Shown: one piece after another, positions 1-18,230 of the stretch
Numbering within the stretch: position 1 is the first letter of the stretch
How the letters are laid out: each line of letters starts with the position of its first letter
Source of the DNA: Aliiglaciecola sp. LCG003
GTDB taxonomy: Bacteria; Pseudomonadota; Gammaproteobacteria; Enterobacterales; Alteromonadaceae
Direction of reading: 5' to 3'
Assembly: GCF_030316135.1 (NCBI RefSeq)
Contig: NZ_CP128185.1
Span: 2,170,001 to 2,234,000, forward strand
Length of the DNA: 64,000 nucleotides
Translations under genes and position numbers: made by a program
The notes under the pieces: generated by a model
What the model was told of the DNA's origin: nothing
Seen by the model: only the letters and a program-made list of their open reading frames with translations
Databases searched by the model: none

Positions 1-497
1 CAGTTTGGACCGCTTTGACGGATGTTACCGAAGCCAACGGTTGCCTGCGTTTCATGCCTGGTACACACGAAGAGATGGTCTATGACGAATCCAAAGAGAT
101 GAAATACAATCCTGAGGAAGTAAATCGTATCGAAAAAGAGGGTGTAAAACGCGGATTTTTCGGATATGACTACAGGAATCTGCAAAAAGATCCAGATTTT
201 CAACCAGATGAATCGAAAGCCGTGTCGATCGAAATGAAAGCCGGCCAGTTCGTAATTTTTTGGTCAACCTTAATGCATTCATCACTGCCTAATATCACCG
301 AGAACCAGACGCGCATGGCTGTTACGGCACGTTACGTTCCTTCGGCGGTACAAGTCTACCCGGATACTGACACTGTAGAAGAGTACGGAAGTATTATGTC
401 ACTTGATAAATACGGTGTGGTTCTAGCTTCGGGTAAAAATAACTGCCAAAGCAATAGACTAGTCGAACAAAACATCAGAGGAAAAGCTTTTGCTTAA
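1..497 (+). CDS. SyrB2-type Fe(II)/2-oxoglutarate-dependent halogenase, C-terminal part (5' end outside window)
   Basis: Open from the window edge in the frame that starts at base 3; about 164 C-terminal residues are present, against about 310 for the family. From memory of SyrB2 (syringomycin threonyl chlorinase), the match is near-continuous: VWTALTDV, NGCLRFMPGT, GVKRGFFGYDYR, MKAGQFVIFWSTLMH, RYVPS, VYPDTD, SLDKYG and a C-terminal RGKAF. The distal iron-binding His is in STLMHSS (codon 276-278), and the Arg residues just after it fit the 2-oxoglutarate site. Family members (SyrB2, CytC3, CmaB) halogenate amino acids tethered to a carrier protein. The proximal HxA/HxD motif that separates halogenase from hydroxylase lies upstream and cannot be seen, so a PhyH-type hydroxylase remains possible. 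The thioesterase and phosphopantetheinyl transferase nearby support a nonribosomal peptide role. Confidence 0.85.
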   Translation, partial: VWTALTDVTEANGCLRFMPGTHEEMVYDESKEMKYNPEEVNRIEKEGVKRGFFGYDYRNLQKDPDFQPDESKAVSIEMKAGQFVIFWSTLMHSSLPNITENQTRMAVTARYVPSAVQVYPDTDTVEEYGSIMSLDKYGVVLASGKNNCQSNRLVEQNIRGKAFA

Positions 498-601: not shown

Positions 602-1309
602 ATGAACACAATAAATAGTCCGATGGTGCTCCTCGATATTTTTGTAGCGCCCTCTACAGTTTTCACGCGTCTTCAATCGATTAAGAAATGGGGTTGGTTA
701 GGGCTATTACTCCTAATCACTATGACGATTTTTAGCACGATATCGTTCTATGGGAACATGTCACCAGATTGGATCATGGAACAGCAGTTGTTGCATGCTG
801 GTGAAATTGCACCTGCAGAGCGAGATGCAACGATTGATATGATGAGTCAGGCAGTTGAGTATTTAGGACTCATAGGAAGCGTTTTATCAACAATCTTTTT
901 AGTGTTTGTTTGTGCCCTGTCGGCAGGGTATTTGATGTTGGTCAGTAAGCTTTCAGCAAACAAAAACAACTACCAATTCGGCGATTGGTTTAGTTTTTCG
1001 ATTTGGAGTCAAATGCCACTTTTTATAAACCTTTTTGGTTTTATAATCATTTTTTTAACATCATCGACGCCAGACCTTCCTTTGGAGTTGCCAAACTATG
1101 CTTCTTTAAATCAGCTTTATCTTGGTCTCGTTCCAGGTGATGTGTTTTTCAATTTCGCAGAGAATATCAATCTTTTTTATCTTTGGTCTATTGGCTTAGT
1201 AACATTGGGTCTGATGTATTGCTGTCAATTTTCGATAACAAAAGCGATTTTTTTCTCTTTACTACCATATCTTGTTGTATTCGGGTTGTGGTTCTTATTA
1301 CTCATATAA
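602..1309 (+). CDS. Yip1-family multi-pass inner-membrane protein
   Basis: A 235-residue protein with a polar N-terminus carrying the bacterial Yip1-type opening (SPMVLLDIFVAPSTVFTRL) and about five hydrophobic segments (near residues 30-50, 90-120, 135-155, 180-205, 215-235). An AAGGAG ribosome site lies at 586-591. Bacterial Yip1 proteins have no settled function, though they recur beside MacAB-type exporters. Here the gene is 18 bp upstream of the adaptor gene and probably in the same transcript, which suggests an accessory role in export or in organising the exporter in the membrane. The family call is fairly safe; the role is inference. Confidence 0.75.
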   Translation: MNTINSPMVLLDIFVAPSTVFTRLQSIKKWGWLGLLLLITMTIFSTISFYGNMSPDWIMEQQLLHAGEIAPAERDATIDMMSQAVEYLGLIGSVLSTIFLVFVCALSAGYLMLVSKLSANKNNYQFGDWFSFSIWSQMPLFINLFGFIIIFLTSSTPDLPLELPNYASLNQLYLGLVPGDVFFNFAENINLFYLWSIGLVTLGLMYCCQFSITKAIFFSLLPYLVVFGLWFLLLI

Positions 1310-1327: not shown

Positions 1328-2476
1328 GTGAAAAAACTAACAATATTCATATTCATCTTAGCAGGACTGGTTGCAGTGATTACTGTCAGAAACTCCTTCT
1401 CTAATAGCTCTGCGCTGGAGATCAATAGTGAGAGAGTAAAAGAGCAAGTTCTATCTGACAGTATACTAGCCTCTGGGAATCTTATTTTTGATTCTCAGAT
1501 CGAAATACGCTCAGAGGTAACCGGGATCGTTACAGAATTATCGGTTGAAGAGGGGCAATATATTGATAAAGGTGCTCAGCTATTGCAGTTAGATGCCACT
1601 GCTTATATCGCGGACGTTCAAAAGTTTGAGTCAGCGGTTAAAGCCCAGGAAATTGAAATCGAATATGCTGAGGAAATCAGTCGTGATTTGCAAAGGCAAC
1701 TCGAAACCAAGAGAGAGTTATATAAAAACAATAGTTTAGGGCTTGAGACTTTAAAACAAATAGAAAGTGAACACCGTGTCGCTCGAATTAAAGTAGAAGC
1801 CGCTAAGGAAAGTTTGAATCAACAGACTGCTCTGTTAGCTTACGCGCAAGATAGATTGAAAAAAACAACGTTTAGGGCGGCCATGTCCGGTCTAGTTTCG
1901 TCCGTAGACGTGAAGACTGGTGAAACTGTAATTGCAAGTACAACTAATATTTTAGGGTCATCCTTAATTACTCTCGCGGATCCAACCACTATTCTCGCAG
2001 AGTTACGTATTGACGAAGCAGATAGAGCGAATGTTAAACATGGACAAACCGTAAATATATTTACGGCATCGGACCCGAAGACAGGGGTTGAAGGACGAGT
2101 CAAAAGTATTGGCACCTCTGCACGCAGTGAGAATGGTAATAAAGGGCTTTTCTACATCGTTAAAGTAGAGTTAGAAAATCAAGAGCAACTCTTTCCTGGA
2201 ATGAGTTGTCGCGCAGAAATCGTAACGAGTACATCGAACCCTTCATTGAGCGTGCCAATATCGGCCGTCAGAAAAGAAAATGAAGATTATTTTGTATGGG
2301 TTATTGATGACGATACAGTTAAAAAACAAACCGTGACTGTAGGAATGGCGACAGACACTCAACAATCGATCACCTCTGGCTTGCAGTTATTAGATGTTGT
2401 TGTGACTGGGCCAAGCCGACTATTTAGTCAATTTAAAGATGGTATTGGCGTCAAGCAAAAAGATAACCACTTATGA
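1328..2476 (+). CDS. MacA-like periplasmic adaptor (membrane fusion protein)
   Basis: A 382-residue protein with a GTG start preceded by GAGGAAAA. It has one N-terminal membrane anchor (about residues 3-23), a biotinyl-lipoyl half-motif (IEIRSEVTGIVTELSVEEGQ), a central coiled-coil hairpin (about residues 95-175), the second lipoyl half (TFRAAMSGLVSSVDV), then beta-barrel and membrane-proximal domains. This is the order in MacA/HlyD-type adaptors. Its 3' end overlaps the ATPase gene by 4 bp, so it is the adaptor of that transporter. The outer-membrane channel (TolC type) is not in the window. It most likely exports the halogenated peptide; the substrate is inference. Confidence 0.85.
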   Translation: MKKLTIFIFILAGLVAVITVRNSFSNSSALEINSERVKEQVLSDSILASGNLIFDSQIEIRSEVTGIVTELSVEEGQYIDKGAQLLQLDATAYIADVQKFESAVKAQEIEIEYAEEISRDLQRQLETKRELYKNNSLGLETLKQIESEHRVARIKVEAAKESLNQQTALLAYAQDRLKKTTFRAAMSGLVSSVDVKTGETVIASTTNILGSSLITLADPTTILAELRIDEADRANVKHGQTVNIFTASDPKTGVEGRVKSIGTSARSENGNKGLFYIVKVELENQEQLFPGMSCRAEIVTSTSNPSLSVPISAVRKENEDYFVWVIDDDTVKKQTVTVGMATDTQQSITSGLQLLDVVVTGPSRLFSQFKDGIGVKQKDNHL

Positions 2477-3207
2477 AACAATCGATAATAAAATTAAATA
2501 GTATTTCTAAACAATATCAGATGGCTGATGAAATATTCTACGCATTAAGAGAAATAGATCTATCAATTAATGAAAATGAATATGTTGCGATAACAGGTCC
2601 TTCAGGATCCGGCAAATCGACCCTAATGAATATACTCGGTTGCTTGGACTCAAGTAGCAACGGTAGCTATTGGTTAGATGGTGTAAATACCGCCAATCAA
2701 AATGAAACGTTTCTTGCCCAGGTGAGGAACCGATCTATTGGTTTTATTTTTCAAAGTTTTAATCTTTTACCTCGTACTTCAGTTTTGAATAATGTCATAC
2801 AGCCACTAATCTATCGGCTTATGCCGCAAGAGGAGCGTAAAAACAGAGCAATAAAAGCACTCAAGCAAGTAGGCCTAGTTGACAAGATGAATCATCTACC
2901 CAACCAACTTTCCGGGGGCCAACGACAGCGGGTTGCGATAGCAAGAGCCTTAGTTACCGAACCAGCGATTCTACTAGGTGATGAACCAACTGGAAATTTG
3001 GACAGCCGCACGACTGCGGAGATTATGCGACTTTTTGATCAGCTCCATGACAAAGGCCATACAATCGTCCTGGTTACACATGAAAAGGAAATTGCGAATC
3101 ACTGTGAACGGGTAATTCGATTAGTCGATGGCGCTATTGAGTCTGACCATGAAAACCTAAATCGACAGATGGTAACAACTGAGTCAGGAGAATACTTATA
3201 TGCATAA
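2473..3207 (+). CDS. MacB/LolD-type ABC transporter ATP-binding protein
   Basis: A 244-residue nucleotide-binding domain. Walker A GPSGSGKS is at residues 42-49, and Q-loop [11 protein letters not shown], signature LSGGQRQR, Walker [13 protein letters not shown] and H-loop LVTHE follow in order. FNLLPR and DEPTGNLD are typical of the MacB/LolD/FtsE group. The gene overlaps the adaptor gene by 4 bp and the permease gene by 8 bp, which indicates translational coupling. Unlike E. coli MacB, ATPase and permease are separate polypeptides, as is common for exporters in nonribosomal peptide clusters. Confidence 0.92.
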
Positions 3208-4438
3208 TATGATTAATGTTGGGTATCAAGGCCTAAAAGCAGCAATGCAAGCTATAACGGCGAATGCTATGCGAAGTGTGTTGACAACGCTGGGGATAAT
3301 TATAGGTGTTACGTCAGTAATCGCAGTAGTAGCCGTCATGAATGGTTTGAGTGCAAATATTAGCAGACAGTTAAACGACTTAGGCAGTGATATGGTCACT
3401 CTGAAGGCCTATACCAATGCTAATCAAGAAATGCTGGGATTTACTAATAAGCTAAGTTATGACGATTTCTTAATGCTCAAAGGCAAGGTCAATACAGTTG
3501 AAGATATGACAGTTAGTATGAGGGCTTACAGTCTAGGCGCGAGTGTCCAATATGGAAGGCAATCGACACAAACACAGATCGTTGGTACAGATAGTAGTTA
3601 CCAAAATGTCGTCAGCATTTATCCTGAGGTGGGTCGATTTCTTTCCGAAAGTGACGATTTAAGGCGTCGACGAGTTGCTTTTGTGGGTAGTTCGGTAATC
3701 AAAGACCTTCAGTTACCGACCGATCCGACAGGCGAATTCATAAAATTGAGTGGTGATTCATTTAGAATAATAGGTGTAGCTGAAACTTTGGGAAGCCTTC
3801 TAGGTTTTGACCAAGATAACTACATTATAGCTCCATTCAGCACCATTCGTTCTCTTAATGGAAGCAAAGCAACTGACAATGTAGAAATTATGTTCAGGCC
3901 AAAAGCCGGTATCGATTTAGAGGTCGTTAAACAACAGATGTTACAGATCCTTAGAAACAGACATAAAATCGAAGAGGGAGATGGCGATCATTTTGAGTTT
4001 GTTACCGCTGAGAAGACTAAGGAACAATTTGATAGCGTACTTCAGTCAGTAACACTTGTTGCTTCTGGAATCGTCGCGATCAGCTTGTTAGTTGGTGGTA
4101 TAGGAATAATGAATATTATGTTGGTATCCGTGACGGAGCGAACCAAGGAAATTGGTATCGCAAAAGCGTTAGGAGCCTCATCAAATTTTATACTTTTCCA
4201 GTTTCTAATCGAAGCACTAGTTCTATCACTCCTAGGTGGAGTTGTCGGCATTATACTTGGGTATCTGCTGGCAGGATTTATCACGGTTTTCATGCCAGGA
4301 TCGCCTGATGTCATTATACCATTTTGGGCCATCATGTTGTCTTTTGGTTTTACTACCGCAATCGGCGTATTTTTCGGATTAGCGCCAGCGGTTAAAGCCT
4401 CAAAACTAGTGCCTGTCGAAGCACTGCGTTATGAATAA
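3200..4438 (+). CDS. MacB/FtsX-type ABC transporter permease
   Basis: A 412-residue protein with the MacB permease layout. An N-terminal transmembrane helix carries the typical NAMRSVLTTLGIIIGVTSVIAVVA; a large periplasmic domain spans about residues 45-275; then come three C-terminal helices with the FtsX-family block GIGIMNIMLVSVTERTKEIG and the ending PAVKASKLVPVEALRYE. It forms the membrane half of the exporter with the two preceding genes. It probably works as a mechanotransmitter pushing a periplasmic substrate through a TolC-like channel, as known for MacB. Confidence 0.92.
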   Translation: MHNMINVGYQGLKAAMQAITANAMRSVLTTLGIIIGVTSVIAVVAVMNGLSANISRQLNDLGSDMVTLKAYTNANQEMLGFTNKLSYDDFLMLKGKVNTVEDMTVSMRAYSLGASVQYGRQSTQTQIVGTDSSYQNVVSIYPEVGRFLSESDDLRRRRVAFVGSSVIKDLQLPTDPTGEFIKLSGDSFRIIGVAETLGSLLGFDQDNYIIAPFSTIRSLNGSKATDNVEIMFRPKAGIDLEVVKQQMLQILRNRHKIEEGDGDHFEFVTAEKTKEQFDSVLQSVTLVASGIVAISLLVGGIGIMNIMLVSVTERTKEIGIAKALGASSNFILFQFLIEALVLSLLGGVVGIILGYLLAGFITVFMPGSPDVIIPFWAIMLSFGFTTAIGVFFGLAPAVKASKLVPVEALRYE

Positions 4439-4474
4439 CCTTGCCCTATGTTTAAATCTAAGAGGAATGTTGAT

Positions 4475-5329
4475 ATGTCAGAGTCACAGTGGTTGTTAAA
4501 ACCAGAAAAGAAAAAAAATGCTAAATTGAAGCTATTTTGTTTTTCGTATGCTGGAGGCAATGGTTCTACATTTATATCATTGAATGATAGATTACCTGAA
4601 GAAGTTGAGTTAAATGTGGTTCAACTACCTGGTCATGGCGCTAGATTTTCTGAAACGTTACACAGCGACATGGATGACTTAGTTGCTGGTATGTTAGTGG
4701 AATTCAAGAAGGAATTGAACTGCCCCTACGTTTTATTTGGACATAGTCTTGGTAGTATGATTGCAACAGAACTTATGTATCAATGTCATAAAGCTGGCTT
4801 TTCTTTACCGCAGTATTTCATTGCGTCAGGATGTCGTTCTCCAAAGCTAAAAAGCCGCAAAGGTGCTATACATGAATTGCCAGATGAGGCATTTAAATCT
4901 GTATTGAAAAAGTTAAACGGCACACCTGATCTCCTGTTAGAAAATCCTGATTTAATGGATCTGTTCTTACCACTTTTGAGAGCAGACTTTAAGTTATCAA
5001 ATGACTATCAATTTAAGCATGAACACCGGTTTAATTGCAAAGCTTCGATTTTTGGTGGTCAAGATGATATTGACGTGGGACTTGATGATCTTAATGCTTG
5101 GCAGCAAATGTTTAGTCTAAAAGCAAAGATTGAACTATTCCCAGGTGACCATTTTTTTATTGAAAGTGTTAAATCTATGGTTTGGGACCAAGTTATAAAA
5201 CTCATCAATGAATCGCTATTGGAATTAAATAAGTCGAATTTAGGTCGCAATTACGCAGAAGATAAAGGTAGCAAAATACTTTGTTCTGAGTCTAGTGTCG
5301 CGGCAAATCGGCCAGATATGGTATATTAA
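4475..5329 (+). CDS. Type II (external) thioesterase of a nonribosomal peptide/polyketide cluster
   Basis: An alpha/beta hydrolase of the GrsT/RifR type, 284 residues from this start. Visible features are LFCFSYAGGNGSTF near the N-terminus, nucleophile Ser91 in GHSLGS, an Asp in FGGQDDID (about residues 197-198) and His226 in GDHFFIE. The ATG at 4475 was chosen because AGAGGA lies 8 bp upstream; the in-frame ATG at 4448 has no ribosome site. Such enzymes hydrolyse wrong acyl or aminoacyl groups from carrier proteins, and some release the tethered halogenated amino acid. This places synthetase genes just upstream of the window. Confidence 0.88.
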   Translation: MSESQWLLKPEKKKNAKLKLFCFSYAGGNGSTFISLNDRLPEEVELNVVQLPGHGARFSETLHSDMDDLVAGMLVEFKKELNCPYVLFGHSLGSMIATELMYQCHKAGFSLPQYFIASGCRSPKLKSRKGAIHELPDEAFKSVLKKLNGTPDLLLENPDLMDLFLPLLRADFKLSNDYQFKHEHRFNCKASIFGGQDDIDVGLDDLNAWQQMFSLKAKIELFPGDHFFIESVKSMVWDQVIKLINESLLELNKSNLGRNYAEDKGSKILCSESSVAANRPDMVY

Positions 5330-5368: not shown

Positions 5369-6118
5369 ATGCCTATTTCAAATCCAGCTAAAGTAAAGAA
5401 TGCTACTGATCCTTTTTTGTATATAAAAAAAATCATACCATTCGACCTGATGCAATCTGTTGTTTTCTATCAATGTGATTTTTTTGTACAACATTATCAG
5501 CAACATTTATTCTCACTGTATCAAGTCGATTTTCCTTCATCGTTGAAAAATGCCGTACCTAAACGCCAAGCAGAATATTTAGCTGGCCGCTACGCTGCGA
5601 AGCAAGTTCTAAAAAATAAAGGGGCTATTTTTACAGGAGTTAAGATAGGTGCTGACAGATCACCTGTATGGCCAAGAGGGATTATTGGCTCTATAAGTCA
5701 TAATCATTCAACTGCTGTTTGCGCGGCAGCATTTACTAAAGAAGTTCAGTGTTTAGGGATTGATCTAGAGGATTGGATCAGTCCATCAGTAGTAAAGGAG
5801 ATTAAAAGCGGCGTTGTTAAGCCTGACGAGGAAAAATTATTGCATGCTTCTTCGCTTGGCTTCGATAAAGCATTCACATTAGCATTTTCCGCCAAAGAAA
5901 GTTTGTTTAAGGCGCTTTATCCTTTAGTGGGATATTACTTTGATTTTGATGCCGCGCAGTTAATTGAAATTAATGAAAGTGAAAACAAACTTAGTATGAC
6001 GTTACGCAAAGATTTAACGCCAGATCTTCCGGCAGGTACCTGTTTAAATGGATATTATTGTTGGAATGCCGAGCGAGTATTAACTTTAATAGAAAAAAGT
6101 GCGGAGGAATATGAATAA
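5369..6118 (+). CDS. 4'-phosphopantetheinyl transferase, EntD/Sfp-like
   Basis: A 249-residue protein with the EntD-type motifs in order: RQAEYLAGRYAAK (about residues 71-83), SISHNHS (about 113-119), the Mg-binding LGIDLEDW (about 132-139) and FSAKESLFKALYP (about 171-183). These enzymes transfer phosphopantetheine from CoA to a conserved Ser of carrier-protein domains, converting apo-synthetases to the holo form. A gene-cluster copy next to a type II thioesterase fits activation of the cluster's own synthetases. It lies 39 bp after the thioesterase gene on the same strand and closes the first transcription unit. Confidence 0.9.
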   Translation: MPISNPAKVKNATDPFLYIKKIIPFDLMQSVVFYQCDFFVQHYQQHLFSLYQVDFPSSLKNAVPKRQAEYLAGRYAAKQVLKNKGAIFTGVKIGADRSPVWPRGIIGSISHNHSTAVCAAAFTKEVQCLGIDLEDWISPSVVKEIKSGVVKPDEEKLLHASSLGFDKAFTLAFSAKESLFKALYPLVGYYFDFDAAQLIEINESENKLSMTLRKDLTPDLPAGTCLNGYYCWNAERVLTLIEKSAEEYE

Positions 6119-6514
6119 GTTGTAACTCAGGCACTGCTCCGGCGAGTCTTGTTTTATTAATCGAAAGATAAAGTATCCCGCTAATAAATATCGTTTGAAA
6201 TTACCTCACTAGCTTGTCAAAGGTTTTGTCCTAAAAAACATATACACATGTGACATTTAAGATTGTAAATCATTGATTTTATGTGTTATTAATTTACCAA
6301 TGTGATATTTCATTTTTTAAAAGCTGTCACATGAATAGATATGATGTGCCACATGAAAGAATGTTTCATTAGATGTTAATTGCTACTATTCGTTGGTGTT
6401 AGGAGGATTTTAACGCAACCCCAAATGAGAAAATCACGTTAACTATAAAACAAGATTGCACTAAGTCGGTGAGTTTTTCCCATTTTAAGTAATTCCAAAA
6501 ATAAGGTGTTCAGT
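6119..6514. other. A+T-rich intergenic region between two export/biosynthesis units
   Basis: No credible gene here. It holds a 9-bp inverted pair, CATGTGACA (6247-6255) and TGTCACATG (6325-6333), with a further CCACATG nearby, which could be a regulator site or a long-range stem. A perfect AGGAGG (6401-6406) has no start codon at usable distance. The promoter for the CvaAB-like pair presumably lies here, but no convincing -35/-10 pair was found. Confidence 0.5.
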
Positions 6515-7768
6515 ATGACGATGGGAAAGTCACTATTTCGAAGCGAAGCCGTAGAATATCAAAAGCAGACCACATGGGGTGATCTTGTCCTTTATCACCC
6601 TTCTTCTCTTTCTATTTTGACTTACTTAATATTATTCGTTGTTTTATTACTCATTATTGTCTTGTGCCTAGGAACATACGAGCAACGCACTGTTGTTGGC
6701 GGGTACCTAGTACCGACTGAAGGATTAGTTAAAGTTTATCCGCAAGGCGAGGGGATTATTTCCGAAATCCATATTGCAGATGATGACATAGTCAAAGCTG
6801 GCGACAGGTTGATGACGGTCTCGACTGTACGTTCATCCGAAGCGCTCAGCGATATTGATTCTGCTGTTATGGGCCAACTAACACAATCGCAAAGCCATCT
6901 AGAAGAAAAAATTTATGCAGAACAGCGGTTGGCGGAAATTGCAAAAAGTCGTTTATCTTCAATAATTACCGGGCTGCAGCACGAAATATTACAATTAGAA
7001 ACTCAATATGAAACAGCTAACAGTCAGTATCAAGCTGCATTTAAACGAGCGAGTGAAATTAAAAGTCTAATTAATAGCGGCCATGTCTCTGGAAGCCAAT
7101 ACCAAGATCAATATGAAAACTTGCTCGTTCATAAGTTAAGCATGCAAGAAATTGAAGCGATGCTTATAAAACAAAATAACTTATTGAATGATGCAAAGAT
7201 CCAAGTATCTCAGCTTCCTTTTCTTCTTACCTCTAAACTTGCAGATTTAAAACAATCTATCTCTACAATTAAGCAAAAATACATTGATTTAGATGCTAAG
7301 CGAAGTTACACCATATTGGCCCCGACTGCTGGACGTGTTACTGCATTGCAAAAGGAAATCGGTAGGGTACTGTCACCCCAAAAAATGTTGATGGCTATTT
7401 TACCGGAAAAAGCGATATTCGAAGCTGACTTATTCGTTCCTACACACTCAATTGGTTTTATCAGAAGTGATCAAAAAGTGAACCTACGCTATAAAGCTTT
7501 TCCTTATCAACGGTTTGGTATCTATAGCGGAAAAATTTCCAAAATCACAAATATTATCTTGTCGCCAAATGAAATCAACGGTCCCATGAGTATTCATGAG
7601 CCCGTCTATCGCGTCACTGTAAAGTTAGATAGTCAAAGCGTTAATGCGTATGGTAATCAGCTTAAGTTGCAATCTGGAATGCTGCTCGATGCGGATATCA
7701 TACTGGATGAGCTATCAGTGGTTGACTGGTTGCTTGATCCACTGTTCAGAGTGACAGGTAGATCCTAA
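6515..7768 (+). CDS. CvaA/HlyD-type periplasmic adaptor of a peptide exporter
   Basis: A 417-residue protein with an N-terminal cytoplasmic stretch, one transmembrane helix (about residues 34-55), a lipoyl half-motif (VKVYPQGEGIISEIHI), a long coiled coil (about residues 110-250), the second lipoyl half (SYTILAPTAGRVTAL) and a C-terminal beta domain. This is the layout of adaptors paired with peptidase-containing ABC exporters (CvaA, RaxA). ATG 6515 is preferred over GTG 6506 because AAGG lies 8 bp upstream of it. It overlaps the transporter gene by one base. Its substrate is unknown and no precursor peptide gene was found beside it. Confidence 0.85.
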   Translation: MTMGKSLFRSEAVEYQKQTTWGDLVLYHPSSLSILTYLILFVVLLLIIVLCLGTYEQRTVVGGYLVPTEGLVKVYPQGEGIISEIHIADDDIVKAGDRLMTVSTVRSSEALSDIDSAVMGQLTQSQSHLEEKIYAEQRLAEIAKSRLSSIITGLQHEILQLETQYETANSQYQAAFKRASEIKSLINSGHVSGSQYQDQYENLLVHKLSMQEIEAMLIKQNNLLNDAKIQVSQLPFLLTSKLADLKQSISTIKQKYIDLDAKRSYTILAPTAGRVTALQKEIGRVLSPQKMLMAILPEKAIFEADLFVPTHSIGFIRSDQKVNLRYKAFPYQRFGIYSGKISKITNIILSPNEINGPMSIHEPVYRVTVKLDSQSVNAYGNQLKLQSGMLLDADIILDELSVVDWLLDPLFRVTGRS

Positions 7769-9873
7769 TGGAAAATCCTATTAGCTATCTGAAAATTGGA
7801 AAATTTAATTCAACACCGGTTATTTTTCAATCTGAAGTTGCCGAATGCGGACTCGCATGTCTTGCAATGGTAGCCTCTTTTCATGGTCACCAAATCGATC
7901 TAAATACCCTACGAAGAGATTATCCAACCTCTCTCAAGGGTGTTGATCTTAATAGTTTAATGAGTGTCGCCAATAACCTAAATTTTTCGTCAAGAGCATT
8001 AAAATTACCTATTGAAAAGCTAAGCCAAATACAAACACCATGCATCCTGCATTGGGACTTAAATCATTTTGTTGTTCTTACAAAAGTGACTAACTCAAAA
8101 GTTACCATAATTAATCCAGCAATCGGTAAACAAGTCCTGTCGTTTGAAGAGGTTTCGAATCATTTCACTGGTGTTGCCTTGGAGTTAACACCAAATCTCC
8201 GATTTGAAAAGAAACATGAACAGCTCACTATGAAGTTGTCAGATCTGTGGGGCAAGACAAGAGGGATGAAGCGGGTTTTTAGTCAAATCTTGATTTTGTC
8301 ATTGTTACTACAAGTTTTTACCCTTTTTGCACCTTTCTATATGCAAATGGTGGTCGACAATGTAATTGTTGGGAACGATAAAGATCTTTTAAATCTTTTA
8401 GTTATTGGTTTTGGTTTACTTGCAGTCGTTTGCGCGGGGACGGAGCTGTTGCGCTCATACATCATTATGTATTTGGGTAATCAACTCAACATGCAAATTT
8501 CATCCAATCTTTTTAGACATTTACTAAATTTACCTGCCGATTTTTTAGAAAAACGACATGTAGGAGATGTTGTATCTCGATTTCAGTCGATAAAAGAGAT
8601 AAAGAAACTACTAACAACTGGAGCAATTGAAGTTATTGTCGATGGGCTAATGGTGTTTGGAACACTGATTTTGATGTATATTTACAGTCCACTTTTAGCT
8701 TCATTAATTCTTGGTATTATTATAATTTACGCGACCATAAAAATGGTGCTATTTCCTAGGTTAAGAGCCTATACAGAAGAGGCTATCATCAGCAGCTCTA
8801 AAGAACAGAGTCATTTTTTAGAGACAATTCGAGCGTTTCAATGTGTTAAGTCGTTTGTACGTGAATCACACAGCCATAGGTTATGGTGTAATCGTTATGC
8901 ATCGGCTATTAATGCCGAAATGAAAGTTAATCGATTTAGGTTTACCAATGATGCGTGTCGCAAATTGGTCTTCACCTTAGGCACTATTATTGTGATCTAT
9001 TACGCAGCACAACTAATTCTAGAGAGTCTTTTCTCTGTTGGGATGCTATTTGCTTTCTTGGCCTATCAGCTTCAGTTTACAACTAAGGCTTCGGATCTTT
9101 TAGATAAAATTGTCGAATATAGGATGCTTGGATTGCATTTGAGTCGGGTCGCAGACATCGTCATGTCCCCTGTAGAAGAAGTCGGGATAAAATGTGATTC
9201 ACGTGTTCCCATCAAAGGACAGATCGAGCTGAGCGGTCTTAGTTTTCAATACTCAGAAGCTGATCCGTTACTTTTAGATAATCTGTGCTACGCATTTGAA
9301 GCCGGAAAAACCACAGCGATTATCGGAGCATCAGGTTGTGGAAAGACAACTTTGATTAAGATATTACTTGGCCTAAAGAATCCAACCAAAGGGCATGTAC
9401 TTATTGATGGAGTTGATATTCAGAATTTCGGCCTTGCTAATTATAGACAACAAGTTAGCTCAGTCATGCAAGATGACCAGCTTCTAACCGGATCTCTAAT
9501 AGAGAATATCTGTTTTTTTTCGCCTAATTATGACATGCGACTAATCAAGGAGTGCGCTAATATTGCGCAAATTCATGATGATATTATGGCAATGCCGATG
9601 GGTTACAACTCACTGGTAGGCAATATGGGAACCATACTTTCTGGGGGGCAAAAGCAACGAATTCTGCTTGCTAGGGCGTTATATGCTAAGCCGAAGGTAC
9701 TTTTCCTTGACGAAGCGACAAGTGCGCTAGATTGTAAGTTAGAGTCTAGTGTTACTAAAGCGATTAAACGACTTAATATTACGCGGATCATCATCGCGCA
9801 CCGACAAGAAACGATCACAGCAGCTGATAGGATCGTTAGGTTGAATACAGGACAATTAGTTTCAACTTTGTGA
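7768..9873 (+). CDS. CvaB-like peptidase-containing ABC transporter (C39 domain) with Asp-to-Asn change
   Basis: A 701-residue protein, close to CvaB length. An N-terminal C39 peptidase domain (about 1-135) is followed by an ABC transmembrane domain (about 165-440) and an ATPase domain (about 475-700) with Walker A GASGCGKTT, signature LSGGQKQR, Walker B VLFLDEATSALD and H-loop IIAHR. In the peptidase domain, Cys27 (AECGLACLAM) and His100 (WDLNHFVVL) are present. The expected catalytic Asp is Asn116 (IINPAIG), at the same 73- and 16-residue spacings as CvaB C32/H105/D121. Active family members cut double-glycine leaders while exporting peptides. This one may be impaired, use Asn, or export something without cleavage. 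Confidence 0.9.
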   Translation: MENPISYLKIGKFNSTPVIFQSEVAECGLACLAMVASFHGHQIDLNTLRRDYPTSLKGVDLNSLMSVANNLNFSSRALKLPIEKLSQIQTPCILHWDLNHFVVLTKVTNSKVTIINPAIGKQVLSFEEVSNHFTGVALELTPNLRFEKKHEQLTMKLSDLWGKTRGMKRVFSQILILSLLLQVFTLFAPFYMQMVVDNVIVGNDKDLLNLLVIGFGLLAVVCAGTELLRSYIIMYLGNQLNMQISSNLFRHLLNLPADFLEKRHVGDVVSRFQSIKEIKKLLTTGAIEVIVDGLMVFGTLILMYIYSPLLASLILGIIIIYATIKMVLFPRLRAYTEEAIISSSKEQSHFLETIRAFQCVKSFVRESHSHRLWCNRYASAINAEMKVNRFRFTNDACRKLVFTLGTIIVIYYAAQLILESLFSVGMLFAFLAYQLQFTTKASDLLDKIVEYRMLGLHLSRVADIVMSPVEEVGIKCDSRVPIKGQIELSGLSFQYSEADPLLLDNLCYAFEAGKTTAIIGASGCGKTTLIKILLGLKNPTKGHVLIDGVDIQNFGLANYRQQVSSVMQDDQLLTGSLIENICFFSPNYDMRLIKECANIAQIHDDIMAMPMGYNSLVGNMGTILSGGQKQRILLARALYAKPKVLFLDEATSALDCKLESSVTKAIKRLNITRIIIAHRQETITAADRIVRLNTGQLVSTL

Positions 9874-10132: not shown

Positions 10133-10777
10133 TTGATAAAAATTTTGTTAGTGGATGATCATGAATTAGTTAGAAAAGGCATCAGCCGAATTCTACAAGA
10201 TATATCTGACTTTAAAGTGGTGGGTGAAGTAAATAGTGGCGAAGAGGCGATTAAGTTTTGTCGCAACGATCCGCCTAATATAGTATTGATGGACATGAAT
10301 ATGCCGGGCATCGGCGGTTTAGAAGCCACTAAACAAATTATTCATTACGCCCAAGAATCCAAAGTTATCGTTTTATCGGTACATACCGAAAATCCTATTC
10401 CAGCCCGGGTGATGCAAATGGGTGCTTATGGTTATTTAACCAAGGGAACTGATCCTCATGAGATGATCATTGCAATCCGTAAGGTTGCCGCTGGTCAGCG
10501 TTATATCGCCCCAGACATTGCCCAACAAATCGCAATCGGGCAGCTAAATTTAGAAGATTGCAGTCCTTTTGAACAACTTTCTAAACGAGAGCTTGAAATC
10601 ACTATTATGTTGACTAGAGGGGCTAGGGTACCTGACATTGCCAATAAACTGAATATTAGCGCTAAGACTGTGAATACCTATAGGTACCGCATGTTTGAAA
10701 AATTAAATGTAGGTTCTGATGTAGAGCTAACTCATTTAGCATTGCGCCATAATTTAATTGATAGCAATCAACTTTAA
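10133..10777 (+). CDS. uvrY: GacA/UvrY-type response regulator
   Basis: A 214-residue two-component regulator. The receiver domain (about 1-120) has the acidic pair near DD, phospho-acceptor Asp54 in VLMDMNMPG and the TENP/KGT blocks; the LuxR-type HTH covers about 145-205 (LSKRELEI, ISAKTVNTYRYRMFEKLN). It follows E. coli UvrY almost throughout. Partner of the BarA/GacS sensor, it normally drives CsrB-type small RNAs, controlling secondary metabolism, motility and biofilm. TTG start with GGAG 6 bp upstream. The conserved uvrY-uvrC-pgsA order marks the return to core genome. Confidence 0.95.
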   Translation: MIKILLVDDHELVRKGISRILQDISDFKVVGEVNSGEEAIKFCRNDPPNIVLMDMNMPGIGGLEATKQIIHYAQESKVIVLSVHTENPIPARVMQMGAYGYLTKGTDPHEMIIAIRKVAAGQRYIAPDIAQQIAIGQLNLEDCSPFEQLSKRELEITIMLTRGARVPDIANKLNISAKTVNTYRYRMFEKLNVGSDVELTHLALRHNLIDSNQL

Positions 10778-10803
10778 CGACTTGGCGTAATGTAGTTGTT
10801 CTG

Positions 10804-12630
10804 ATGGATAATACTGACCCATTTGATTCTGAAAATTTTTTAAAAAATTTAACACCTAAGCCGGGCGTATACCGGATGTACAATAGCAACCAAGATGTAA
10901 TCTATGTTGGTAAAGCTAAAAATTTAAAAAAACGTGTTAGTAGTTATTTCCGCAAAAATCTCGACAGTATAAAAACTCGCGCACTGGTCAAACAGATAGC
11001 TAACATTGAAGTCACTGTGGTCAATAGTGAGACTGAAGCCTTTATACTTGAAAACAATTTCATCAAAAAATATAAACCTCGTTACAATGTTTTATTAAGA
11101 GATGACAAATCTTATCCTTTTATTTTTCTGTCTGAGCATCAACACCCCAGACTAGCATTGCATCGCGGGACGAAAAAACTCAAAGGGGATTACTTTGGGC
11201 CCTATCCAAGCGCCTGGGCTGTCCGTGAAAGCCTGCGGACCATGCAAAAGCTATTTCCTATCCGTCAATGTGAAGACAGTTACTACCGAGCCAGAAGCCG
11301 ACCGTGTCTGCAATTCCAGCTAAAACGATGCGCAGGGCCTTGTGTTGAAGGCTTGGTTAGCGATGAAGAATATAACGAACAAATACGCTTAGCTAAATTA
11401 TTTCTGCGCGGCAAAAATAGCCAAGTGATTGAATCTTTAGTAAGTAAGATGGAACACGCCAGTGAACAGTTGCGCTTTGAGGCTGCTGGACGTTATCGTG
11501 ACCAAATCAGCGCTTTGAGTAAAGTACAAGAGCAGCAGTGGGTCAGTGGCAATCAGGAAGAAATGGACGTATTTGGCTTTGTCTATCGCAATGGTATAGC
11601 CAGTATCCAAGGGATGTTTATCCGCGATAACAAACTATTAGGCAGTAAAAGTTTCTTTCCAAAAGTGCCCGCACAAGCCGGAACCGACGAAATACTGCAA
11701 TCTTTCGTTTTACAGTTTTATTTAGCTGGCAATAAAACCATTCCGAAACAAATTGTTTTGCCGAGCAAGTTGCAAGAGCAAGAGGCCATCGAACAACTCC
11801 TAAGCCAAGAGGCTGGGCGGAAAATTCAATTTTTCAGTGGCGCTAGAGAAGAAAAAAAACGTTATTTACACTTGGCAAATACCAATGCCGAAAATGCATT
11901 GGAAGCAAAACAAAACCAACAAAAATCTGTTTTCGCCCGTTACGTAGAGCTAGAAAAAATATTAGATTCAGAGCAACCCATACAACGTATGGAGTGTTTC
12001 GACATCAGTCATACTTCAGGGCAACAAACCGTTGCGTCTTGTGTGGTGTTTAATCGCGACGGCCCCTATAAAACCGATTATAGGCGTTATAATATTGAAG
12101 GCATTACGCCAGGTGATGATTACGCGGCAATGGCGCAGGCGTTAGAACGCCGTTACAAAGCCAGCAGTGATGAATCAAAAATCCCTGATATTTTATTTAT
12201 CGATGGTGGTAAAGGTCAGTTAGCTCAAGCAGAAAATCATTTCGATAATTGGAAATTAAATAAAAAGCCCTTACTAATTGGGGTAGCCAAAGGCACCAGC
12301 CGTCGACCTGGTCTTGAAACCCTCATACTTGGTGGGAATCATGATACTATACCTATGTCTGCAGATTCTCCGGCGCTGCACCTAATTCAGCATATTCGCG
12401 ATGAGGCTCACCGCTTTGCCATTGCAGGCCACAGGCAACGCAGACAAAAAGAAAAACGCACTTCAAAACTCGAATCCGTACCTGGAGTAGGGGCTAAACG
12501 TCGTCAAAGCCTACTCAAATATATGGGAGGCATGCAGGGAGTTTTGCAGGCAAGTCGTGATGAGTTAGCCAAAGTACCTGGTATTAGCCAAGACATGGCT
12601 GACACTATATATGAGCATATTCATGGGTAA
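10804..12630 (+). CDS. uvrC: UvrABC excinuclease subunit C
   Basis: A 608-residue protein of normal length. A GIY-YIG nuclease domain (about 18-100: PGVYRMYN, VIYVGKAKNLKKRV) makes the 3' incision; a Cys-containing block (RPCLQFQLKRCAGPC) follows; the UVR motif that binds UvrB is near 200-235; a central RNase H-like nuclease (MECFDISHTSGQQTVAS, DILFIDGGKGQL) makes the 5' incision; and the C-terminus has two helix-hairpin-helix motifs (SVPGVGAKRRQSLLKY). Nucleotide excision repair. Located 26 bp after uvrY, as in many gammaproteobacteria. Confidence 0.97.
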   Translation: MDNTDPFDSENFLKNLTPKPGVYRMYNSNQDVIYVGKAKNLKKRVSSYFRKNLDSIKTRALVKQIANIEVTVVNSETEAFILENNFIKKYKPRYNVLLRDDKSYPFIFLSEHQHPRLALHRGTKKLKGDYFGPYPSAWAVRESLRTMQKLFPIRQCEDSYYRARSRPCLQFQLKRCAGPCVEGLVSDEEYNEQIRLAKLFLRGKNSQVIESLVSKMEHASEQLRFEAAGRYRDQISALSKVQEQQWVSGNQEEMDVFGFVYRNGIASIQGMFIRDNKLLGSKSFFPKVPAQAGTDEILQSFVLQFYLAGNKTIPKQIVLPSKLQEQEAIEQLLSQEAGRKIQFFSGAREEKKRYLHLANTNAENALEAKQNQQKSVFARYVELEKILDSEQPIQRMECFDISHTSGQQTVASCVVFNRDGPYKTDYRRYNIEGITPGDDYAAMAQALERRYKASSDESKIPDILFIDGGKGQLAQAENHFDNWKLNKKPLLIGVAKGTSRRPGLETLILGGNHDTIPMSADSPALHLIQHIRDEAHRFAIAGHRQRRQKEKRTSKLESVPGVGAKRRQSLLKYMGGMQGVLQASRDELAKVPGISQDMADTIYEHIHG

Positions 12631-13421: not shown

Positions 13422-13497
<76 letters not shown>

Positions 13498-13582
13498 AAT
13501 ACTTTTTAAACGCCTAGGCGTTTAAATGGAGAAGCCAAGAACACTTGGTTAAGTTAGCAACGCTAATCACTCTCCACATTTA

Positions 13583-13656
13583 GGCGGAATGGCAGAATGG
13601 CTATGCAGCGGATTGCAAATCCGTGGATCTCGGTTCGACTCCGGGTTCCGCCTCCA
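13583..13656 (+). tRNA. tRNA-Cys (GCA)
   Basis: A 74-nt cloverleaf. Acceptor GGCGGAA pairs with TTCCGCC, with encoded CCA. The anticodon stem is CGGAT/ATCCG with loop TGCAA centred on GCA, and the T loop is GGTTCGACTCC. Equivalent to E. coli cysT. Confidence 0.96.
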
Positions 13657-13680
13657 CCTCGCGCGAAAGCGCAACCCGAT

Positions 13681-13767
13681 GCCCGGGTGGTGAAATTGGT
13701 AGACACAAGGGATTTAAAATCCCTCGTTCGTAAGGACGTGCCGGTTCAAGTCCGGCCCCGGGCACCA
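13681..13767 (+). tRNA. tRNA-Leu (TAA)
   Basis: An 87-nt class II tRNA with a long variable arm. Acceptor GCCCGGG pairs with CCCGGGC, followed by ACCA. Anticodon stem AGGGA/TCCCT encloses loop TTTAAAA (anticodon TAA). The T arm is CCGG-TTCAAGT-CCGG. Equivalent to E. coli leuZ. Confidence 0.97.
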
Positions 13768-15058: not shown

Positions 15059-18000
15059 CTAGGGAAAACTAATAGTAACGTTATCTAACAATACCTCTTG
15101 TGCGTCTACTCCACTAAATTCACCATTAATCTGCAAGCATACACGCTCTATTATGGCTATATCTCCATTAGCATTGTCTTGGGCAGAGAAAGTAAACACA
15201 TTGGCACCTGAGGATAAGGTTTCTAAGCCACCATAAATTCGAGTATAGTTTGGTGCACCGGTTTGTATATAGCCCTGCACCGTCATACCGCTATCAGCTA
15301 GTTGCTGACTAACTGAAAGCGTATATTGCACAGTGCTATTGGTAAAGTCAGTCGCGCTGATTTCCTTTATGTAATTATGACCATTGCTAACGCCATTAGG
15401 CAGCATTACAGCGGCTTCATTATCTGGATCATGGCCTACTGTGGCATCTGTACCATAATCTCCCCGCCAGCCCTCTGCGCTGCTCACAAAGTCATACTCA
15501 ACTATATTACTTGGAGGTACAGTAACGGGTATGGTGATCCTGACACGTTCTAGAAGCACGTTATCAAGCTCTCCTTCAGTGGGTACACCGTTCAATTGGA
15601 AGGCGATCCGTTCGATTATTTGCAAATCTGATGCATCATTATCCACCGGATTAAATACAATAGTATTGGTTCCGGCTACGGGTGTTTCAACAGCGGCATA
15701 AATACGCGAGTAGTTAGGAGCGCCTGTTTGCACATACGCTTGAACAGTTAAGCCACCATCAACCTGAGCTTGAGTAACGTTAAATTGATATTCGAGGGTG
15801 GCATTGGTTAAGTCAGTGGCACTAATTTCCTTAATATAATTTTGTGAGCTCACGCTCCAGTCAGGGATCAGGATTACTGCTAAATTAGCACCATCATAGC
15901 CCACCGTTGAAGGGGTTCCGTAATCGCCTCGCCAACCCTCAACATCGTTATAAAAATTGTATTCAATCACTATGGGTTCAAGTTCATCACCTGGAACTAA
16001 TATCTGTAAATTCAGTAAAGTACTCGTGTATTGCCCTGCTTTAACCTGGATATATAGATTATGTAAAGCCGGATTCAAACTTCCGGTTACTGTGATCTGT
16101 CCACTGTATTGGTCAATCGCAAACAACGAATCACCGCTTCCTCCTAAGATTGACCAACTGATTTGCTCATTTGGAGCATGAGGATTGCCGTCGTACGCTA
16201 TAGAAGACAAAGTTGCAACAGAAGTTCCGACTGCTGTACCTGGTTCAACTTCTAATAATCCAGGGTTAATAATTTGCGGAAGTAGTCCTCGGACATAACC
16301 TCGCAACCAAACTAGTGCGGGTTTTTCAGCGCCATTTTCTTGGGCTAAAATAGCTCCTTGATTTTCCCGCCAGTGTCCAGGCAAATAGCCCCAAAGGGTA
16401 ATTCCCTTAACAGCAGGATGTTCCCAAAATAGCGGGAAAATACGCTGATAATCCAATAATTGAATTAGATCTGTTGCACCATCAATGTCTAATTCAGTGA
16501 CATACAGATCTAAGCCTGTCTGGGCAGCTAAGCGGTCAAGGTTGTCTTGCATGGCCTGATTTGGACCCGTGGTTGAAAATGCATGGCCTTGAAATCCAAC
16601 GTCATCGATTAGATTGCGTTGTTGAAGCAAGTCTACCAGCTCGATCATTTTGTCAGTGCGAGTAGCCGTGTTAATTACACTATATTCGTTTATCATCAGC
16701 CGAGTACTCGCTGGGAAGATACGCCGTGCCATTTGAAATGAGTTAATTATCCAATCATATTCTGCTGCCTTTAATATAGCGTCTGCATTACTCAAGCCTT
16801 GCTGCTCAAAATAACTGATCAGCTCAGTAGTGGTGGCAGGTTGGTAAAGTCTTAATGCATCGATATAACCGGGCCCATTATTTTCACTATCTGGTGGATC
16901 ATTATCAAATTCATTTACCACCTCAATGAAATCTATTGCAGCATAGCGCTGGTTAATGGCGTTCATCCACTCAAGTATCTCTTCTAGTTGTTCTTGAACG
17001 GGAAGGTCGGTTATCCATGCGGGTTGTTGGTTGCCCCAGATCAACACGTGATGCTTATACAAGTAGCCATTGTTTTTAGCTAAATTGTAAGCCTCATCAA
17101 GCTCTGTCCAATTGAAGCTATCTCTAACGGGCTCAGCGGAGCCCCATTTTCCAGCGTTTTCAGGTGTCACCTGGTTAAAGTAAGCTTCAAAATTAGGCCG
17201 CTGACGACCGCAACACACACCACCAACGAACTTATCTTGGCCGTCCGCCATTGGGGGACCTTCAGGCACAAAAGGAGGAGGAGGGGGTATAACTTGGCCA
17301 GGCAGACCATTTTCCAACTCTTCAATGGTAAACAACACGCCTTGTGGCGCAAAGGCAAACTTATCTATATCTAGACCATCTTCTCGACCGCCAAAACGAA
17401 ATGTTTGTAGCAATTCATTGTCAGGAACCGTATAGATTGGATCACTTAATCGCATCCACTTCCACACCTCGGTGGCGGATGACCCGCCACCTACCACATT
17501 TACGCCTGGTTCATAACCCACTTCACCAGGAACGATAAAGCCAGAGATGCTATTTACCGATACCCAACCATTATTTGCACCTAAGGCATCAGGGGCATAA
17601 AAGCTATCATCATTTGCTCCATTAGGGCCTACGCGGACTCTGGCATACATTTCATAGCTACCCGCTTGCGGAAAGGTCACATTTAGCTCGATCACTCTGG
17701 AATCATCACTTGGAGCATTAGTATCAGTTTCCGATATGGTGACGTAACTAGGATCTCCTTCTATAACGTTAAAAGCGCCACCAAGCATAACCAAAACGCT
17801 GGCGTCACCGCCTTCCGCCTGAGCATACACACCGGCATTGGGATTATCTTGTTGCAGGTTGGCAGTAAAAGAAAGACGTTTACGTTGTAACTCGAAATTG
17901 AGCTGTACAGAGACGCTTTGGTCAGGCTGGATAGTATCTGCCGACATCTCTAAATACGGCAAGCCCTGTTCAGTGATACCGGTTAAATTTGATAAGGGTA

Positions 18001-18229
18001 TAGTTGCGTCAATGACTATCAAGCGAAGGGGCCCAGCGATAGCGGTTTCACCTTGATTACTAATTTCTACTACAGATATGTATTGACGATTAACACGATC
18101 AAATGCTGGGAGGGTAGAACTAACAGTTACATTCTGTTCAACGTTTACCCATTTAGCCAACACAAATGACGGCATTAACAGTATTAGAAAATTCAAATAT
18201 AGCCAGGTGAGTCTGTTTGTTTTTTGCAT
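15059..18229 (-). CDS. Secreted multidomain GH10 endo-1,4-beta-xylanase
   Basis: A 1056-residue protein with a signal peptide (about 1-25). Next come an N-terminal beta domain (about 27-130), a carbohydrate-binding-like domain (about 135-315) and a proline-rich linker. The GH10 barrel covers about 330-647, with acid/base Glu440 in EVVNEFDN and nucleophile Glu579 in YVTELDID; the HHVLIWGNQQPAW and ITLWGYLPGHWR blocks are typical. A cadherin-like domain (about 650-750) follows, then two tandem copies of a roughly 145-residue module (about 757-905 and 912-1056) sharing EGWRGDYGT, NYIKEISATD and QTGAPNY, probably carbohydrate-binding. It cleaves xylan outside the cell. The upstream gene stops one base before this start, so the two are co-transcribed. 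Confidence 0.92.
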   Translation of the reverse strand: MQKTNRLTWLYLNFLILLMPSFVLAKWVNVEQNVTVSSTLPAFDRVNRQYISVVEISNQGETAIAGPLRLIVIDATIPLSNLTGITEQGLPYLEMSADTIQPDQSVSVQLNFELQRKRLSFTANLQQDNPNAGVYAQAEGGDASVLVMLGGAFNVIEGDPSYVTISETDTNAPSDDSRVIELNVTFPQAGSYEMYARVRVGPNGANDDSFYAPDALGANNGWVSVNSISGFIVPGEVGYEPGVNVVGGGSSATEVWKWMRLSDPIYTVPDNELLQTFRFGGREDGLDIDKFAFAPQGVLFTIEELENGLPGQVIPPPPPFVPEGPPMADGQDKFVGGVCCGRQRPNFEAYFNQVTPENAGKWGSAEPVRDSFNWTELDEAYNLAKNNGYLYKHHVLIWGNQQPAWITDLPVQEQLEEILEWMNAINQRYAAIDFIEVVNEFDNDPPDSENNGPGYIDALRLYQPATTTELISYFEQQGLSNADAILKAAEYDWIINSFQMARRIFPASTRLMINEYSVINTATRTDKMIELVDLLQQRNLIDDVGFQGHAFSTTGPNQAMQDNLDRLAAQTGLDLYVTELDIDGATDLIQLLDYQRIFPLFWEHPAVKGITLWGYLPGHWRENQGAILAQENGAEKPALVWLRGYVRGLLPQIINPGLLEVEPGTAVGTSVATLSSIAYDGNPHAPNEQISWSILGGSGDSLFAIDQYSGQITVTGSLNPALHNLYIQVKAGQYTSTLLNLQILVPGDELEPIVIEYNFYNDVEGWRGDYGTPSTVGYDGANLAVILIPDWSVSSQNYIKEISATDLTNATLEYQFNVTQAQVDGGLTVQAYVQTGAPNYSRIYAAVETPVAGTNTIVFNPVDNDASDLQIIERIAFQLNGVPTEGELDNVLLERVRITIPVTVPPSNIVEYDFVSSAEGWRGDYGTDATVGHDPDNEAAVMLPNGVSNGHNYIKEISATDFTNSTVQYTLSVSQQLADSGMTVQGYIQTGAPNYTRIYGGLETLSSGANVFTFSAQDNANGDIAIIERVCLQINGEFSGVDAQEVLLDNVTISFP

Positions 18230-18230
18230 T

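Follow-up and report, generated by a model that had tools for sequence, protein, structure and literature searches.

In syringomycin biosynthesis, SyrB1, SyrB2, and SyrC feed module 9 of the non-ribosomal peptide synthetase (NRPS) SyrE: in the account given by the source, Thr is charged on a separate carrier (T) domain, chlorinated, and transferred to the last module, a single recipient that has no adenylation (A) domain (PMC8949500). A halogenase gene of the same family lies at the very start of a stretch of 64,000 nucleotides from Aliiglaciecola sp. LCG003 (G000:C1:2170001-2234000 of a genome that is a single contig of 4,411,932 bp; hereafter the window), and it is the last gene of a cassette that also comprises a Cys-type alpha/beta hydrolase (ABH), a stand-alone A domain (A0), and a stand-alone carrier (T0). 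Our analysis suggests, with a probability of roughly 0.68, that this trans-acting chlorination cassette serves the NRPS encoded upstream of it, loading modules whose own A domains have decayed. On this reading, which we consider the best one, the locus would generalise the single SyrB1/B2/C-fed module of syringomycin.

The proposed scheme shares with syringomycin the halogenase family and the route from a separate carrier, via chlorination, to a module without a working A domain, whereas in Aliiglaciecola the A domain and the carrier are separate proteins, the substrate code is Val-like, and the supposed recipients are internal modules, most of them with decayed A remnants. These supposed recipients number two here and up to five per region in relatives (six if a second contig is counted), against one in syringomycin. 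The CytC1/CytC2/CytC3 system of Streptomyces (Protein Data Bank (PDB) entries 3gja and 3vnq) also pairs a stand-alone A domain with a halogenase acting on an aliphatic carrier-bound residue; its product is a free dichlorinated amino acid, unlike the NRPS-fed residue supposed here.

With regard to the largimycins, members of the leinamycin family, a published proposal assigns the loading of Thr to LrgS, its chlorination to LrgH, and its transfer to LrgY; mutants in lrgH gave dechloro compounds (PMC9396626). As in the cassette, an A-T protein, a chlorinase, and a Cys-type alpha/beta hydrolase are found together in this system and in Kitasatospora sp. NBC_00039; the Kitasatospora hydrolase is homologous to ABH and the halogenase beside it is 55.6% identical to ours, LrgY being equated with this hydrolase by position only. 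As the source describes it, the largimycin trio forms the loading module of an NRPS/polyketide synthase hybrid and uses Thr, whereas here A and T are free proteins with supposedly internal NRPS recipients. Inactive A domains complemented in trans have also been described for albicidin/cystobactamid, ramoplanin, and enduracidin (PMC8949500). The likeness is that a stand-alone A-T protein makes up for an A domain within the assembly line whose core motifs have decayed; no halogenase is mentioned there for these systems, and one inactive A domain is described for albicidin. In the LgnA/LgnB/LgnD shuttle, a stand-alone A-T protein and an aminoacyltransferase of the alpha/beta-hydrolase fold, both with counterparts in the cassette, feed a unit of a condensation (C) and a T domain, and further C-T didomains, at internal positions of NRPSs, are reported there for related clusters (PMC8748450). 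The Lgn transferase is described there as a Ser-type homologue of type II thioesterases, with Thr as the substrate and no chlorination, whereas a profile of ABH does not score the type II thioesterase of our own cluster (-2.8 bits).

The genes that carry the argument are listed below; all except the last lie upstream of the window and are given in contig coordinates.

2122368-2148575, + strand: NRPS1, 8,735 amino acids (aa)
2149929-2164310, + strand: NRPS2, 4,793 aa
2165666-2166919, + strand: pyridoxal phosphate (PLP)-dependent decarboxylase, ornithine/diaminopimelate-decarboxylase-like
2166950-2167798, + strand: Cys-type alpha/beta hydrolase (ABH), cassette gene
2167785-2169290, + strand: stand-alone A domain (A0), cassette gene
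2169318-2169548, + strand: stand-alone carrier (T0), 76 aa, cassette gene
window 1..497, + strand: halogenase (HAL), 3′ part, 164 aa, last cassette gene

The initial annotation, made from the window alone, had described the C-terminal 164 residues of the halogenase as SyrB2-like, and the likeness extends to the whole gene. The open frame in the window (3-497, + strand) encodes these residues, including GFFGYDYR, FWSTLMH, and RYVPS, and the complete gene (G000:C1:2169586-2170497, 303 aa) reaches 415 bases upstream of the window. In a PDB sequence search, the protein matches SyrB2 (2fct) end to end (residues 1-302, E 2.5e-119) and, second best and again at full length, CytC3 (3gja, E 2.6e-107), the third sequence being far weaker (2.1e-10). 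Membership of the PhyH superfamily (PF05721) would also suit an ordinary Fe(II)/2-oxoglutarate hydroxylase, but this alternative is extremely improbable: the protein passes the NCBIfam model TIGR01762, "chlorinating enzyme" (440.5 bits, cut-off 226.3), and it has H112-Q113-A114 where hydroxylases have HxD/E, with H231 retained. The HxA motif and the second His are present in 13 of 13 homologues, our own included, and HQA occurs in the Kitasatospora and Azospirillum relatives as well. Both A and carrier genes adjoin the halogenase, a gene content that points to a carrier-bound substrate with a dedicated A domain, and NRPS genes are found directly upstream, so that neither the triad nor the neighbourhood is that of an ordinary dioxygenase. 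Judged by its sequence, the gene is a SyrB2/CytC3-type Fe(II)/2-oxoglutarate carrier-dependent halogenase with predicted chlorination activity.

The nucleophile motif of the hydrolase is GYCSG, and a Cys nucleophile (G[YV]CSG) is present in all 11 ABH sequences read, with Asp and His invariant across five aligned relatives. SyrC and CmaE likewise use a Cys nucleophile. No PDB sequence matched ABH at E<=0.01; its profile matches the hydrolase beside the halogenase in the leinamycin-type Kitasatospora cluster at 109 bits (motif GLCGG). For the A domains, nine-position pocket codes were read by rule from the alignment rather than from structures. A0 has the code DAFWLGGTF, whose printed positions agree across 12 cassettes except for one Leu in genome G189. 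The codes of NRPS1 A1 to A4 are DAFWLGGTF, DAFFIGQVC, DVSHNSYTC, and DVSFIAYIY, and those of A5 to A8 are DSSTIAAVC (decayed), DASTIAAVC, DAFWLGGTF, and DAFTIAAVC; in NRPS2, A1, A2, and A4 read DGFFLGVVF, DAFWFGCTF, and DAFWLGGTF, and A3 is decayed. We take DAFWLGGTF to denote Val, DA(S/F)TIAAVC Tyr or Phe, and DGFFLGVVF Ile. Three live NRPS A domains share the nine-residue code of A0. Over the first ~270 residues these domains (NRPS1-A1, NRPS1-A7, and NRPS2-A4) do not differ at all, and A6 and A8 are 99-100% identical, a pattern that on the sequences is one of recent gene conversion or duplication between modules.

NRPS1 and NRPS2 together comprise 12 A-T units. NRPS1 begins with a C-domain remnant that scores weakly, below the threshold, continues with eight A-T units split by seven C domains, and ends in an epimerisation-like (E) domain recognised by motif; NRPS2 starts with a TubC-type docking domain, continues with four C-A-T modules, and closes with a C domain whose HHALIDG is intact, there being no thioesterase. 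In module 5 of NRPS1 the A3 core is lost, IATCETLHKPEL standing where live modules have IYTSGTTGQPKG, and the second half of this A domain is 85% identical to its counterpart in module 6. In module 3 of NRPS2 the A3, A4, A5, and A10 cores are lost. Both modules keep the C-domain HHxxxDG and the carrier Ser, and the state of the core motifs argues that both A domains are inactive.

A scan of genome contigs with the halogenase gave 17 loci, nine of them at 64-76% identity. ABH, A0, T0, and HAL are all present in 10 of 13 genomes, our own included, and adjacent in that order in nine: Aliiglaciecola itself, an Alteromonadaceae metagenome-assembled genome (MAG; G047, L018), Aliikangiella marina (G100, L012), a family genome (G208), two gammaproteobacterial MAGs (G101, L013, and G098, L010), and three Burkholderia genomes (G102, G103, and G105; L014, L015, and L017). 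Genome G189 has ABH and the halogenase on one contig but 79 kb apart, Burkholderia lata (G104, L016) has A, T, and HAL together with its sole ABH match elsewhere, the MAG G036 (L011) has the pieces split over different contigs, and the more distant G719 (halogenase 53% identical) gave no match to ABH or T0. The 12 genome handles searched for ABH represent 10 distinct genomes, our own included (G036/G099 and G047/G106 being the same), and ABH was matched in all 10. The decarboxylase was also considered as a part of the cassette and rejected, its best match in the other nine distinct genomes being 31% identical and not beside the cassette.

The halogenase occurs in 5 of 395 Alteromonadaceae genomes at E<=1e-20 and in 2 of 369 genomes drawn from the class at E<=1e-60 (both including our own), and in none of eight genomes of the same genus searched with the 164-aa part, one of which is 59% complete. 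The earlier view that such enzymes are uncommon outside Pseudomonas and actinomycetes is right as to rarity and too narrow as to range, with close relatives in Burkholderia, Aliikangiella, and gammaproteobacterial MAGs, and one at 55% identity on an Azospirillum plasmid. The halogenase tree favours a transfer between families, as it places Aliikangiella and the Alteromonadaceae MAG as sisters (100/99); other deep forks in the cassette clade are weak or unresolved. In Burkholderia, the halogenase gene is followed by a second carrier gene, and the 80 kb of G102 that were read contain no recognisable C domain, as fits a transferase that passes the residue to another carrier. The Burkholderia cassettes (L014, L015, L017, and L120 on the B. 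stagnalis plasmid plas2) have no adjoining NRPS. Those of plas2 and G102 lie near the second carrier, an N-acyl homoserine lactone (AHL) synthase, an AstE/AspA-like protein, and an aminotransferase, the plasmid also having a radical S-adenosylmethionine (SAM) protein; perhaps they make a small chlorinated metabolite under quorum control. Among open-licence papers, no work on this cassette in Alteromonadaceae or Burkholderia was found, and nothing on it was seen in PMC12171316 or PMC12871659.

Decayed modules were counted by running profiles derived from the C, A, T, and E domains of these NRPSs over the cluster regions. A module was defined as a C followed by a T domain in one frame, and it was called decayed when the stretch between them lacked an A3 core, fewer than 7 of the 8 positions being matched; the A3 score was bimodal in 186 modules (at most 5, or 7-8, of 8). 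Lacking a full C domain, the first A-T unit of NRPS1 went uncounted, which gives our own cluster 11 modules rather than 12. Across the NRPS loci of the seven cassette genomes counted, decay affects 18 of 87 modules, namely 2 of 11 in Aliiglaciecola, 3 of 13 in G047, 5 of 14 in Aliikangiella, 3 of 8 in G208, and 5 of 33 in G189, the other two genomes having none. G719 and two further G036 contigs, without a countable module, were left out of the 87. Further NRPS contigs of G208 and G047 have 3 decayed modules out of 17, all on G047:C190, and these were kept outside the 18 of 87. The decayed A domains of this contig (L103) resemble those on the G047 cassette contig, and the two contigs may be parts of a single cluster divided during assembly. 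In 22 family genomes without a halogenase match, 4 of 159 modules are decayed; these control regions were found with a live-module query, which could lower the decayed rate, and were counted whole. A first control of 99 modules had none, and the larger one is used here. The difference has a Fisher p of 4e-6 by module (18/87 vs 4/159) and of 0.016 by genome (5/7 vs 4/22).

The carrier Ser is kept in all 21 decayed modules (the 18 and the three on G047:C190) and the C-domain motif in 19 of them. The form of decay varies: the A3 core is lost or all cores have drifted in Aliiglaciecola, A3 plus the stretch from A4 to A6 is lost in G047, a C-terminal A remnant alone is left in G208, a weak N-terminal remnant or none is left in G189, and in Aliikangiella the stretch measures 153 to 741 aa and is fragmentary or no longer recognisable. 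The C domains of decayed modules mostly group by their own genome, as expected if decay arose separately in each; the exceptions, both weakly supported, are one Aliikangiella/G047 pair and one G208 domain beside G101.

From gene content, motifs, A-domain decay with intact C motif and carrier Ser, conservation of the cassette, and enrichment of decayed modules, all observed directly, we infer the catalytic steps, the substrate, the modules loaded, the chlorine count, and the release as follows. A0 would activate an amino acid of the branched-chain type, with Val as the likeliest, and load it onto T0, and the halogenase would chlorinate an unactivated carbon of the carrier-bound residue. The Cys-type ABH would work as an aminoacyltransferase, as in SyrC, CmaE, and LrgY, and not as a thioesterase, moving the chloro-aminoacyl group to the carriers of NRPS1 module 5 and NRPS2 module 3. 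The product would be a peptide of about 12 residues, probably two of them chlorinated. Amine release is known from rhabdopeptide-type systems. It is suggested here because NRPS2 ends in a C domain without a thioesterase and a decarboxylase is encoded nearby, and it may be guessed that this ornithine/diaminopimelate-decarboxylase-like enzyme supplies the amine.

Several observations weigh against trans-loading of the decayed modules by the cassette. The A domain of NRPS1 module 5 has a ratio of non-synonymous to synonymous substitution rates (dN/dS) of ~0.40 in its N-terminal part, with no clear relaxation, in a comparison with live paralogues that shows signs of gene conversion among the copies. 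The cassette cluster of G101 has no decayed module among 5 and the G036 fragment none among 3, this last contig (C127) being counted in the 87 with its link to the G036 halogenase contig not established. Modules from the same genome cannot be treated as independent, and some genomes that lack the halogenase also have modules whose A domain is decayed or missing: in the controls, two stretches of ~620 aa, one of 44 aa, and one of 133 aa stand between C and T. The two long stretches are on G115:C1 (L105) and G148:C10 (L106), and that of L105 has no Pfam match. ABH is likened to SyrC and CmaE by its Cys-type fold and not by direct alignment, and the one check of homology, a tblastn search of plasmids with our own ABH, returned no Pseudomonas record at E<=0.1, so that a link to CmaE was not detected; nine Pseudomonas plasmids carry relatives of the halogenase. 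Nor does any carrier signature cleanly separate decayed modules. Two features at first looked specific for decayed modules, namely a Lys found in 9 of 21 of them (against 0 of 83 live and 0 of 155 control modules) and the motif NYF..GGDSIR (9 of 21 decayed). However, NYF..GGDSIR is also found in three live modules and tracks the downstream C type, HHAxWDG, and no recognition code is proposed. Carriers with NYF..GGDSIR (in G047, G100, and G189) precede HHAxWDG C domains wherever the next domain is seen, none being found in the controls; the two possibly form a distinct, perhaps epimerising, T-C pair.

The main rival is that the terminal C domain of NRPS2, A0, and T0 form a split module 13, whose residue is chlorinated and from which ABH releases the peptide, the decayed modules being served otherwise or skipped. 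The intact HHALIDG of that C domain, the lack of a thioesterase, and the position of the A, T, halogenase, and hydrolase genes downstream of NRPS2 fit such an arrangement, but the nucleophile of the hydrolase is Cys and not Ser, and all four genes are also present in Burkholderia G102, where 80 kb of sequence revealed no C domain, and in G101, whose NRPS ends, from its translation, in a thioesterase-like region. The split module also leaves the decayed modules and their enrichment unexplained, and we regard it as unlikely. Alternatively, the A domain of another module might load the decayed ones, without involvement of the cassette. A precedent is the loading of CmnI by CmnA-A1 in capreomycin, as described in PMC12400406, and three live A domains of our own NRPSs could do so with the code of A0. 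The concentration of decayed modules in cassette genomes (five of them hold all 18) tells against this iterative loading, which appears quite unlikely. A third possibility concerns the fate of the chlorine and is compatible with trans-loading by the cassette. The initial annotation had expected a chlorinated peptide, and the halogenase does stand with NRPS genes, but the end product may be chlorine-free, as SyrB2-type chlorination can be cryptic according to PMC9396626. Chlorine would then act as a leaving group in the formation of a cyclopropane, an epoxide, or another ring; the pathways to coronamic acid and the largimycins are described as examples of cryptic chlorination (PMC8748450, PMC9396626). 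However, no cyclase-like gene was recognised beside the cassette, where none was specifically searched for, and the next gene encodes a Yip1-domain protein; we consider a chlorine-free product possible, though somewhat doubtful.

The remaining genes of the cluster and its border are as follows, the first two lying upstream of the window.

2121586-2122326, + strand: NNMT/PNMT/TEMT-family methyltransferase
2164307-2165647, + strand: major facilitator superfamily (MFS) transporter
window 602..1309, + strand: Yip1-domain membrane protein (PF04893, E 4.3e-15)
window 1328..2476, + strand: MacA/HlyD-like periplasmic adaptor, putative product exporter (from the translation)
window 2473..3207, + strand: MacB-like ATP-binding cassette (ABC) ATPase, putative product exporter (from the translation)
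window 3200..4438, + strand: MacB-like ABC permease, putative product exporter (from the translation)
window 4448..5329, + strand: stand-alone type II thioesterase, editing (PF00975, E 1.6e-36, above its cut-off)
window 5369..6118, + strand: EntD/Npt-like 4′-phosphopantetheinyl transferase (EntD E 1.9e-31, Npt E 2.6e-18, both below curated cut-offs)
window 6506..7768, + strand: HlyD-like adaptor of a second exporter, cluster membership uncertain (from the translation)
window 7768..9873, + strand: ABC transporter with an N-terminal C39-like peptidase region, cluster membership uncertain (from the translation)

The Yip1-domain gene probably belongs to the same gene run as the cassette, and the phosphopantetheinyl transferase would arm the carrier domains. 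The thioesterase, the transferase, and two exporters had been named as neighbours of the halogenase; the thioesterase passes its model cut-off and the transferase, at the expected place, stays below its curated ones, the exporters being judged from translations. Directly after the second exporter, translations show a UvrY/GacA-type response regulator, which may control the cluster, and then a uvrC-like gene (window 10133-12630). Upstream of the cluster, a 1375-aa protein (G000:C1:2115844-2119971) has a 49%-identical partial homologue that adjoins the cassette in L010 (4613-6334), and the two are perhaps a shared sensor or regulator. Further into the window, tRNA-Gly, tRNA-Cys, and tRNA-Leu stand in a row at 13422-13767, where overlapping short open reading frames are probably spurious, and a 1056-aa secreted protein resembling glycoside hydrolase family 10 (GH10) xylanases and a 241-aa PEP-CTERM-like protein are encoded on the minus strand at 15059-18956 (from translations).

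As far as our searches show, what is new relative to the literature is the presence of several internal recipients per assembly line, the retention of decaying A domains, and the recurrence of one conserved cassette in separate NRPSs. The chances seem to us evenly balanced that a mobile cassette has been plugged into at least five NRPS lines and has taken over several internal modules in them, whose A domains then decayed separately; the same even weighting applies to the view that this decay runs from a lost A3 loop to near-complete absence. If this is true, one halogenase would chlorinate several positions of a peptide, and these would be legible in the genome as decayed A domains. It would provide a rule for spotting polychlorinated peptides, by which modules with decayed A domains are counted wherever the cassette is present, as well as a series of stages leading from a collinear to a trans-fed assembly line. 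The cassette would then also amount to a four-gene module for placing chlorinated aliphatic residues at chosen positions of a peptide.
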